Assembly: GCA_007135755.1 (NCBI GenBank)
Contig: SLIG01000158.1
Span: 1 to 43,898 of the forward strand
Origin: Cyanobium sp.
GTDB taxonomy: Bacteria > Cyanobacteriota > Cyanobacteriia > PCC-6307 > Cyanobiaceae
Reading direction: 5' to 3'
DNA: 43,898 nt
Positions 7,188 to 43,898 of the stretch are shown in pieces. How positions within the stretch are numbered: the stretch's first letter is position 1; each line of letters begins with the position of its first letter. A program made the position numbers and the translations under genes. Below the pieces are notes generated by a model. It was not told the origin of the DNA. It saw nothing but the letters and a program-made list of their open reading frames with translations, and made no database searches.

Positions 7188-7988
7188 TCAGGGCTGGGGC
7201 GACTGGGCTTCGCCAGCGTCGGGGCGGGGCAGCAGGCGGAAGCCGCAGGAATGGCCCTTCTCCAGCCGCCAGTGCACCCTGTCCACCTGGCAGTCGGGGA
7301 AGGTTTCGCGGATCAGCCGCAGTTCCTGGTCGCAGACGCAGGGGAACTGCTCGGCGATGCGCATCACTGAGCAGTGGAATTCACGCATCAGCCAGCCCTG
7401 GCCGTCAGGATCTGGGCTGCACTCGGCCACAAAACCCTCCAGGCGGCGCAGGTCCACCAGCTGCTGCAGTCGCTGGGGAAGAGAACCAGGCCCGATATGG
7501 GCCCGGTAGGTCGCCGCTTTCACATCGGCCTGCTGGCTGAGCAGCCGTTCGATGGCGTGGGGCGGCAGGGCCTGGGCCAGCGACTCCATCAGGCCGAGGG
7601 CGAAGGTCTCGCTGCCGTCGGGGAAATGGTCCTGGGCTTTGGCGGTGAGCTGCCAGCGGTAGCTGGGGCGGCCCGGCCCGCCTGTGGTTGCGCTCGCCTG
7701 CACCAGACCCTCCATCTCCAGTGTGCGGAGGTGGCGGCGCATGGCCTGCACGGAGATTCCCAGAAACTTGGCCAGTTGCGCGGCTGTGAGCTCCCCATGC
7801 CGGAGCAGTGAGGAGAGCACGGCTTCGCGGGTTGAGGCATCAGCTGTGGCTGCCGGAGCGGTGGGAGCCGCCGGCGGGTTTGCCGCTGGAGTGTGGGCTG
7901 CTGGCAGGTTGGCCGCTGGAGTGTGGGCTGCTGGCAGGTTGGCCGCTGGCAAATTGGCCGCTGGCAAATTGGCAGTGACGGTGCTCAT
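7188..7988 (-). CDS. sufR: SufR, Fe-S-sensing repressor of the suf operon
   Basis: SufR is a DeoR-type winged-helix repressor that uses a [4Fe-4S] cluster to control sufBCDS. The HTH lies at about residues 60-105 (LTAAQLAKFLGISVQAMRRH). Four C-terminal cysteines, Cys206, Cys219, Cys233 and Cys248, have the exact spacing C-x12-C-x13-C-x14-C typical of SufR cluster binding. It is divergent from ftrC-sufBCDS, the classic cyanobacterial layout. The oddity is the N-terminus: residues 7-41 are a tandem pentapeptide array (NLPAA / HTPAA) encoded by 15-bp DNA repeats, which normal SufR proteins lack. The ATG at 7988 precedes this array; a start after the array would need a non-ATG codon or lose little of the HTH. 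Confidence 0.93.
   Translation of the reverse strand: MSTVTANLPAANLPAANLPAAHTPAANLPAAHTPAANPPAAPTAPAATADASTREAVLSSLLRHGELTAAQLAKFLGISVQAMRRHLRTLEMEGLVQASATTGGPGRPSYRWQLTAKAQDHFPDGSETFALGLMESLAQALPPHAIERLLSQQADVKAATYRAHIGPGSLPQRLQQLVDLRRLEGFVAECSPDPDGQGWLMREFHCSVMRIAEQFPCVCDQELRLIRETFPDCQVDRVHWRLEKGHSCGFRLLPRPDAGEAQSPQP
7866..7970. repeat. 15-bp tandem repeat array inside sufR
   Basis: Seven 15-bp units, in two alternating types, fill this stretch. On the plus strand they read GGCAAATTGGCCGCT or GGCAGGTTGGCCGCT, alternating with GGAGTGTGGGCTGCT. On the sufR strand they encode Ala-Asn-Leu-Pro-Ala or Ala-His-Thr-Pro-Ala. The last unit is degenerate. The array stays in frame and lies in the N-terminal extension ahead of the HTH. 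It belongs with the other 15-bp arrays in the window. Confidence 0.9.
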
Positions 7989-33690: not shown

Positions 33691-33772
33691 GCGGATGTGG
33701 TGGAATTGGTAGACACGCACGTTTGAGGGGCGTGTGGCTTCGGCCTTGCGAGTTCAAGTCTCGCCATCCGCA
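33691..33772 (+). tRNA. tRNA-Leu (anticodon GAG)
   Basis: The 82-nt sequence folds as a class II tRNA. The acceptor stem pairs GCGGATG with CATCCGC, with discriminator A. The D-arm contains GGAATTGGTAGAC, the anticodon stem is CACGT/GCGTG with loop TTGAGGG, the variable arm is long (TGGCTTCGGCC), and the T arm contains AGTTCAAGTCT. The anticodon GAG reads CUC and CUU leucine codons. CCA is not encoded. It is followed at once by TTTTTCTTT, which may help end transcription, and then by a 15-bp tandem repeat. Confidence 0.97.
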
Positions 33773-33777
33773 TTTTT
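33773..33777 (+). terminator. T-run after tRNA-Leu
   Basis: Five T residues directly follow the tRNA acceptor stem and are followed by CTTT. With the stable tRNA fold this can act as a terminator, but there is no separate hairpin. Confidence 0.35.
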
Positions 33778-33789
33778 CTTTCCAGCCCT

Positions 33790-33860
33790 GAGCCGTCACG
33801 CCTGAGCCGTACGCCCCAGAGCGGTGGGCACCAGAGCCGTGCGCACCTGAGCCGTTCGCC
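33790..33860 (+). repeat. 15-bp tandem repeat between tRNA-Leu and the LpxB-like gene
   Basis: About five units starting with GAGC: a 14-bp first unit GAGCCGTCACGCCT, then GAGCCGTACGCCCCA, GAGCGGTGGGCACCA, GAGCCGTGCGCACCT and a 12-bp last unit GAGCCGTTCGCC. Read in the frame of the downstream gene they give PEPYA, PERWA, PEPCA and PEPFA-like steps directly joined to the first beta strand ([11 protein letters not shown]). A stop codon (TGA 33789-33791) lies at the first unit, which is one base shorter than the others. Confidence 0.88.
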
Positions 33861-33869
33861 ATCATCCTG

Positions 33870-35120
33870 GTGAGCAACGGTCCCGGCGAGCTCACCACCT
33901 GGGTGCGCCCCCTGGCCCTGGGACTGCACCGCCAGTTGCCACTGCGGCCCCGCGCCGCCGCCAGTGTCGGCGCCCTGCACCTGGTGCTGGTGCCCTGCCC
34001 CAACGGCACCGGCCGCGAGCACGGAGTGGCGGCGGACTGGGGCCTGTTTGAGCGCATCACGCCGGCGCGGCGCTTCTGGGCCCTGCTGCTGCGCCCGGGC
34101 CGCAGGGGACCCTGGCCCCGGCGGGGGGTGGTGGTGTTCCTGGGCGGCGACCAGTTCTGGACGGTGCTGCTTTCGGCGCGCCTGGGCTACCGCCACCTCA
34201 CCTACGCGGAATGGCTGGCCCGCTGGCCGCGCTGGAACGACCGCATCGCCGCCATGGGGCCCCGGGCCGCGGCGCGCCTGGCACCCCGGTGGCGGTCGCG
34301 CTGCACGGTGGTGGGTGATCTGATGGCGGATCTGGGTGAGCAGGCCCGCCGGGAGGCCCCCCTGCCCGCCGGCGAGTGGGTGGCCCTGCTGCCGGGGTCC
34401 AAGCGGGCCAAGTTGCTGGTGGGCGTGCCCTTTCTGCTGGAGACGGCCGACCGGCTGGCGGCGCTGCGGCCCGGCTGCCGGTTCCTGCTGCCCCTGGCGC
34501 CCACCACCAGCCTGGCGGAGCTGCTGCAGTGCGCCGGTGCCGCCAACCCGATCGCCCGCCGCTACGCCTCCGGAGTGCCCCGGCCGCTGCTCTCCACGCT
34601 GCTGGAGAACGATGGGGTGGCGCTGGTCACCCCCGCCGGCACCCGCATCGAGCTGGTGCGTGCGGCTCCGGCCCACGGACCCCTGAGCCAGTGCGCCCTG
34701 GCCCTCACCACCGTGGGCGCCAACACCGCCGAGCTGGCGGGCCTGGGGGTGCCGATGCTGGTGCTGGTGCCCACCCAGCATCCGGAGGTGATGCGGGCCT
34801 GGGATGGCCTGGCGGGCTGGCTGGCGCGGCTGCCTGGGCTGGGCGCGCTGCTGGGCCGCGCGCTCAGCGCCTGGCGGCTGCGGCGGCGGACCCCGATGGC
34901 CCTGCCCAACATCCACGCCGGCCGGCTGCTGGTGCCGGAGCGGGTGGGGGCGATTTCACCGGCCCAGATCGCCGCCGAAAGTGCCGACTGGCTCTCCCGG
35001 CCCGAGCGCCTGGAAGACCTGCGCCAGGACTTGCGCGGCCTGCGCGGCGAGACAGGCGCGGTGGCGGCCCTGGCGGCGCTGGTGCAGGAGCTGCTGCCGC
35101 CGGAGGGCGCCGATTCCTAG
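33870..35120 (+). CDS. LpxB-related glycosyltransferase-like protein
   Basis: The protein (416 residues from GTG 33870) resembles the cyanobacterial branch of lipid-A-disaccharide synthase-like proteins. Recognisable segments are [18 protein letters not shown] at the start, [20 protein letters not shown] and [12 protein letters not shown] in the middle. [20 protein letters not shown] and [20 protein letters not shown] follow in the GT-B C-terminal domain. The acceptor and donor are unknown; cyanobacterial lipid A chemistry differs from that of E. coli. The start is odd: the reading frame is open upstream through a 15-bp repeat array to a stop at 33789. It includes the likely first beta strand (IIL) before the GTG, but contains no ATG, GTG or TTG. 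See findings. Confidence 0.82.
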
Positions 35121-35148: not shown

Positions 35149-35604
35149 ATGCCGGCCTCCACCCCCCCTGAATCCACCCCCAGCGCCGCCTCGGCCTGTG
35201 GCCTCGACAGCGGCCTCAGCCGCGACGCCGGCGAGGAGGTGTGGCGCCAGAAGCTCACCCCCGAGCAGTTCCGCATCACCCGCCAGGGCGGCACCGAGCG
35301 GGCCTTCAGCGGCCAGTACTGGAACCACAAGGGCACCGGCACCTACCACTGCGTGTGCTGCGGCACCCCCCTGTTCAGCAGTTCCACCAAGTTCGACTCC
35401 GGCACGGGCTGGCCCAGCTTCTGGGCCGGCATCCAACCGGAGGCCATCCGCACCCTCGTCGACCGCAGCCACGGCATGGTGCGCTCGGAGATCCGCTGCG
35501 CCAACTGCGACGCCCACCTGGGGCATGTGTTCGGCGACGGGCCCGCTCCCACCGGCGACCGCCACTGCGTGAATTCCGCGTCCCTGGAGTTCAGGCCCGC
35601 CTGA
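35149..35604 (+). CDS. msrB: Peptide-methionine (R)-S-oxide reductase MsrB
   Basis: MsrB repairs oxidised methionine (R-sulfoxide form). The 151-residue protein has the core blocks [46 protein letters not shown] and the catalytic [13 protein letters not shown]. The two CxxC pairs (CVCC and CANC) bind zinc. An N-terminal Ser/Pro/Ala-rich stretch of about 25 residues precedes the domain. It starts 28 bp after the LpxB-like gene, so they may be co-transcribed. Confidence 0.96.
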
Positions 35605-43293: not shown

Positions 43294-43898
43294 TCAGATC
43301 ACGGTGATGGAGTTGCCGGACTGGTTGATGTTGAAGCCCTCCAGGAAGATCAAACCGTCGCGTTTGGCCTGGAAGCCGGTGCGGTCGTTGTTTAGGGCCA
43401 CGAAGGTGCCATCCATGCCGCGAACCTTGAAGGCGGCGGCTTCACCGGCGCCAAAGCTGTCGTCAGCGAACAGATTGTTGATCTGTTTGCCATTGAGCCG
43501 CCGGATGCGCCCTGCGGAGCTGTTGAGGGTGGTGTTGAAGCGAGTGCCGCGGATGCGAAGACGGTCATCAGGCTCGAAATTGACGATGGTGTCGTAGCTC
43601 TTGAGTTGGGTATCTGAAAGATCATCCCAGCGGAAGCTGTCTCGCTGGCCTATCTGGCCGATGAGGGTGTCGGACTCCAGAGCGTCTTTCGTGCGGGTTC
43701 GGCCATCAATCTTGTCGAGAACTCTTTGGGGAATTCGCGATCGAGCTTGAGGGGGGATTCTTCCTCGTCCTGGATTCACCGGATCCACGGGGTCAACCGG
43801 ATCCACGGGGTCAACCGGATCCACGGGGTCAACCGGATCCACGGGGTCAACCGGATCCACGGGGTCAACCGGATCCACGGGGTCAACCGGATCCACGG
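43294..43898 (-). CDS. C-terminal part of a bluetail-domain surface protein (cut by window edge)
   Basis: The frame runs off the right edge, so only the last 201 residues or so are seen. They comprise a (Asp-Pro-Val)n repeat of at least 36 residues, a basic linker (NPGRGRIPPQARSRIPQRVL) and a C-terminal beta-rich domain. That domain reads DTIVNFEPDDRLRIRG, SFGAGEAAAFKVRGMDGTFV and ALNNDRTGFQAKRDGLIFLE. The last block matches the bluetail module at the C-terminus of many cyanobacterial surface proteins. The DNA is clearly less GC-rich than the rest of the window. No catalytic domain is visible; the rest of the protein lies outside the window. Confidence 0.75.
   Translation of the reverse strand, partial: VDPVDPVDPVDPVDPVDPVDPVDPVDPVDPVDPVDPVDPVNPGRGRIPPQARSRIPQRVLDKIDGRTRTKDALESDTLIGQIGQRDSFRWDDLSDTQLKSYDTIVNFEPDDRLRIRGTRFNTTLNSSAGRIRRLNGKQINNLFADDSFGAGEAAAFKVRGMDGTFVALNNDRTGFQAKRDGLIFLEGFNINQSGNSITVI
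43779..43898 (-). repeat. 18-bp perfect tandem repeat encoding (DPV)n at the window edge
   Basis: From 43781 to the end, GGATCCACGGGGTCAACC is repeated exactly about 6.5 times. On the coding strand it gives Val-Asp-Pro-Val-Asp-Pro. The array continues beyond the window. Confidence 0.95.

Follow-up and report, generated by a model that had tools for sequence, protein, structure and literature searches.

The tRNA-Leu(GAG) and glycosyltransferase locus

The window, the whole stretch of 43,898 nt analysed here, comes from a Cyanobium sp., a picocyanobacterium closest, among named genomes, to Cyanobium strains and metagenome-assembled genomes, and carries on its forward strand a gene for an LpxB-like glycosyltransferase of GT-B type, which extends from the codons of its first beta strand (beta1) to the stop codon (33861..35120, stop at 35118–35120). 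It is preceded on the same strand by a tRNA-Leu(GAG) identified with ARAGORN (33691..33772), whose 3' end lies 15 nt before what appears to be a decayed ancestral start, and it is followed on that strand by msrB (35149..35604), which begins 28 nt past the glycosyltransferase stop and adjoins the gene in the related genomes L112, L113, L114 and L003 as well. Upstream of the locus lies accC, in the opposite direction. The glycosyltransferase gene contains no internal stops, and the amino acid identity between the window and L112 is 96.6 per cent.

The stretch between the tRNA and beta1, all of it on the forward strand, is unusual in its layout. A pyrimidine-rich leader (33773..33787), similar to that of most relatives, reaches from the tRNA to the place where relatives usually have their start codon. 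At that place the window has CTG (33788..33790) where the usual start would be TTG, and this CTG is out of the gene's frame; the overlapping TGA (33789–33791) is in frame and sets the upstream limit of the open frame. A tandem repeat array runs across this point and on to beta1. Its unit 1 (33787..33800; CCTGAGCCGTCACG) is 14 bp long, is shared by every member of the five-species clade described below and ends in an in-frame ACG (33798..33800) that is a near-cognate candidate start, whereas units 2–5 (33801..33860) are 15 bp each and encode PEPYA, PERWA, PEPCA and PEPFA. The first codons of beta1 follow directly as ATC ATC CTG (33861..33869), each a near-cognate candidate, and only then comes GTG (33870..33872), the first canonical in-frame start, which falls within the strand. 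In an AlphaFold model of the protein (mean pLDDT 78.9; 31-member alignment) beta1 comprises residues 2–7 (IILVSN).

The initial annotation had described a frame open from the TGA through the repeat units and into the gene, and translation bears this out; the sequence likewise has no in-frame ATG, GTG or TTG between TGA 33789–33791 and GTG 33870. Its further point, that unit 1 has 14 bp rather than 15 and so places the TGA in the gene's frame, also holds. Two other tandem arrays were seen in the window, namely a 15/30-bp array at 7867–7966 (6.7 copies of the 15-bp unit) and a perfect 18-bp array at 43778–43898 (ACCGGATCCACGGGGTCA, 6.7 copies) that runs off the window end.

Start codons of relatives and loss of the start in one clade

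The usual arrangement in the family was established from 166 distinct Cyanobiaceae leaders, several of them from metagenome-assembled genomes (MAGs). The end of a tRNA-Leu was found upstream of the gene in 160 of the 166 loci, and the common plan is a tRNA-Leu(GAG), a weak start, a short and poorly conserved N-terminal tail and then strand beta1; leaders across the family vary in length between 18 nt and more than 200 nt. Of the 166 loci, 148 have an in-frame ATG, GTG or TTG upstream of beta1, the first such codon lying a median of 18 nt past the tRNA; the usual start is mostly TTG and lies 8–35 nt past the tRNA. The first in-frame start in these 148 loci is TTG in 91, GTG in 47 and ATG in just 10, so that weak starts appear to be usual for this gene. 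The remaining 18 loci were scored as having no start wholly after the tRNA, and four of these belong to the sister genus g9, where the ATG overlaps the last tRNA base. The leader of L116 also has no upstream start; GTG GTG form its first two beta1 codons, and this genome may start exactly at the strand.

As a control on frame, upstream ATG, GTG or TTG codons were found in the gene's own frame in 129 of 147 leaders, compared with 5 and 34 in the other two frames. This bias marks upstream starts as the family rule and argues that the missing upstream start in the window, as read from these leaders, is a real exception and not chance. The outgroup agrees, with a start upstream of beta1 in all 19 readable leaders, the shortest of which gives M-D-I-L-I-L-S-NGPGE. 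Had orthologs begun naturally at SNGPGEL, nothing would have been displaced, as the initial annotation recognised; among the Cyanobiaceae and outgroup orthologs read, none was found to start there.

The window shares its exception with four close relatives. Together with L112/L032, L113/L033, L114/L034 and L003/L035 it forms a five-member Cyanobium clade (tree support 0.999) in which two members, Cyanobium sp. ATX 6A2 and CH-040, are named strains rather than MAGs, and in all five species an upstream start is absent before beta1. The agreement of five separate genomes rules out sequencing error as the cause. Their leaders differ in length (103, 72, 82, 58 and 57) and in repeat content: after the 14-bp unit 1 there is one 15-bp unit in L003 and L114, two in L112 and L113 and four in the window. 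The place of the usual start reads TTGAGCC in L113, CTGAGCC in the window, L112 and L003, and CCGAGCC in L114; the TTG of L113 is spaced from the tRNA as in most relatives, yet it does not share the reading frame of beta1.

These differences bear on how the start was lost. The initial annotation had proposed that the array inserted over the original start. Loss of an original start fits what is seen in all five species, but the role given to the array does not: L003 and L114 have a single 15-bp unit and are already start-less, and L113 retains an out-of-frame TTG at the former start site, so the start failed before the array grew. In the simplest order of events the array as it stands would not have displaced the start codon, and displacement by the array is in our judgement very improbable. 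What speaks for a part played by the repeat is its oldest portion, as unit 1 (14 bp) and the 15-bp unit next to it resemble a seed duplication common to the five species and a length of 14 bp breaks the frame; that seed duplication (14 + 15 bp) could be the event that did so. We infer that a frame slip in the clade ancestor, perhaps with the seed duplication, would have disabled the old TTG start, that in every species except L113 the TTG may then have decayed to CTG or CCG, and that the tandem array would have grown later, in a dead leader, in the window lineage. The array does not appear to be a dispersed or mobile repeat, an idea ruled out by the confinement of the exact unit to the glycosyltransferase locus in the clade genomes; matches to the unit elsewhere in the genus carry one mismatch and look like chance.

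Candidate starts at the first strand

There is reason to think that the first strand is still made in the window. At beta1 position 2 all 14 near relatives checked have GTG, while the window and L112 have ATC, and the replacement of two bases with the residue remaining aliphatic suggests that this codon is translated, although the argument is drawn from one change. With position 2 translated and no ATG, GTG or TTG at or before it, a near-cognate start would be needed. For the window we put at about 0.42 the probability of translation from a near-cognate codon at beta1, a value that, like the weights placed below on GTG 33870 and ACG 33798, is a judgement and not a computed figure. The favoured single candidate is AUC 33861, with AUC 33864 and CUG 33867 as alternatives. 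Under such a start the protein would still be made with its first strand, the ribosome beginning at the beta1 boundary, and L113, L114 and L003 could instead use the GTG that is their second beta1 codon. Expression from such a start would be low, and the frequent use of TTG suggests that the family tolerates this.

Conservation around the candidates is consistent with constraint. Of amino-acid-invariant codons, 56 per cent are identical in all five species, while near the candidates nine of nine codons are identical (GAG CCG TTC GCC ATC and CTG GTG AGC AAC), an outcome expected by chance at about 0.005 in a calculation that was made after the stretch had been seen and that ignores repeat homogenisation. 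This hints at constraint on the region round the candidate starts without naming the start. Inspection by eye showed no Shine–Dalgarno motif ahead of any of the candidates. Predicted RNA accessibility was slightly higher at the start codons of ordinary relatives (0.472) than at other codons (0.414), but it was rejected as a discriminator because the clade's candidates show no consistent winner. Against a near-cognate start stand the figures quoted in PMC11497404, by which such codons are rare and weak: CUG is given there as 0.024 per cent of bacterial starts, with a yield of 0.86 per cent of AUG compared with 58.4 per cent for GUG.

Translation might instead begin at GTG 33870, the start having retreated into the first strand to give a protein M-SNGPGEL without I-I-L, a serious rival that we rate somewhat lower. 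This is the sole canonical in-frame start before NGPGEL, and the codon is GTG in all five clade members as well as in L116 and L119, the two other start-less genomes of the genus, compared with a GTG at position 4 in only 38 of the 148 genomes whose start lies upstream. The same source quotes GUG as far more efficient than CUG (PMC11497404). However, the initial annotation had warned that this start would cut the strand, and the AlphaFold model agrees: the GTG encodes the V of IILVSN, and half of beta1 would be removed. The positions lost hold aliphatic residues in nearly every ortholog read, and L113, L114 and L003, which have a GTG two codons earlier, have no need of so short an N-terminus.

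Starts further upstream carry less weight. Initiation at ACG 33798 is quite improbable, even though the five clade species all retain ACG CCT GAG CCG and the related genus g45 has TTG CCT GAA CCG or TTG CCC GAA TCG at the matching place, before Pro-Glu-Pro/Ser. In the tree the clade is nearer to L116, L058, L119 and L115, all without the motif; the step from TTG to ACG takes two changes, and repeat homogenisation may by itself keep the block alike. The least probable account either has ribosomes start upstream of or within the tRNA and reach the gene by read-through or frameshifting, or treats the gene as decaying. An out-of-frame TTG near the tRNA in L113 and a frame that is open into the tRNA in L114 could be taken in its favour, but the old start of L114 is CCG, and a decaying gene fits poorly with the lack of internal stops and the conserved amino acids. 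A start inside the tRNA was rejected for the window clade as a whole, because, with leaders of differing length, the gene is not in a constant frame with the tRNA across the five species, and four of them have an intervening TGA.

The near-cognate reading at beta1 has a possible counterpart in other lineages. In RCC307-type genomes (L079, L085–L088, L099, L289 and L291) just 18 nt separate the tRNA-Leu(GAG) from beta1; no ATG, GTG or TTG lies between the tRNA end and NGPGE in L079, L085, L099 and L291, and in-frame TTG and GTG codons occur only inside the tRNA gene. A comparison of codons across the eight sequences found that the changes from beta1 onward are all synonymous, that four of four changed codons before beta1 alter the residue and that the ATC at beta1 position 1 never changes. 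Because changes from beta1 on are synonymous only, the strand is probably translated in these genomes, and the start is probably either the invariant ATC or a TTG or GTG inside the tRNA. In genus g9 (L292–L298 and L300) the tRNA-Leu(GAG) ends in ...CCATCCGCA, and the ortholog's ATG shares its A with the tRNA discriminator base in all eight species, so that cleavage 3' of the discriminator base would take away the first nucleotide of the AUG. A broader scheme, in which a natural, conserved AUC start is used in more than one lineage (the window clade and the RCC307 type) and the AUG of a third is lost by tRNA 3' maturation, leaving only uncut transcripts translatable, is unlikely.

If confirmed, the window clade would offer an example from nature, common to a whole clade, of a conserved gene functioning with no ATG, GTG or TTG at its beginning, and gene finders would place the glycosyltransferase start at the wrong codon. 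The five species with their differing leaders form a natural series on the loss and replacement of a bacterial start codon, and a family that nearly always lies beside tRNA-Leu(GAG) provides a test of how the processing of a tRNA and the translation of the gene behind it interfere. Among the papers searched, none was found on this glycosyltransferase gene or on its arrangement with tRNA-Leu(GAG).

Comparison with known glycosyltransferases and start codons

The description of the gene as LpxB-like is borne out by profile matches that are weak but consistent and by structure matches. Among 31 family members, PF02684 is matched by all 31 at E values up to 0.1, TIGR00215 by 28 and TIGR03492 ('lipid-A-disaccharide synthase-related protein') by 25. 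The AlphaFold model and Foldseek together assign the window protein a fold of GT-B type; the best matches among solved structures are LpxB (5w8n and 5w8s, E about 1e-6), followed by UDP-GlcNAc 2-epimerases of GT-B type, at TM-scores that are low (0.35–0.48). The window protein nevertheless differs from both LpxB and TIGR03492 in lying below every curated cut-off (14.9 bits against 22.6 for PF02684, 15.9 against 190.25 for TIGR00215 and 20.7 against 219.2 for TIGR03492), and it belongs to a separate, cyanobacteria-wide family with a relative in 97 of 97 genomes sampled over the class. Judged from the model, the protein would work like a GT-B glycosyltransferase, yet by these cut-off tests it is no member of LpxB, and the family apparently has no Pfam or NCBIfam model of its own.

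With respect to its start, GUG and UUG starts are common in bacteria and plastids (PMC9845219). The glycosyltransferase family resembles these in beginning mostly with TTG or GTG, whereas in the window clade none is left upstream of beta1 and the window has no ATG, GTG or TTG where its orthologs start. A natural near-cognate start is found in Escherichia coli infC, which begins at AUU; infC of the window genome has an ATG start and so provides no local precedent. The start of the glycosyltransferase is a candidate read from sequence. The likeness lies in the predicament of the gene itself, for a conserved gene that lacks ATG, GTG and TTG at the expected place would need a start of the infC type.
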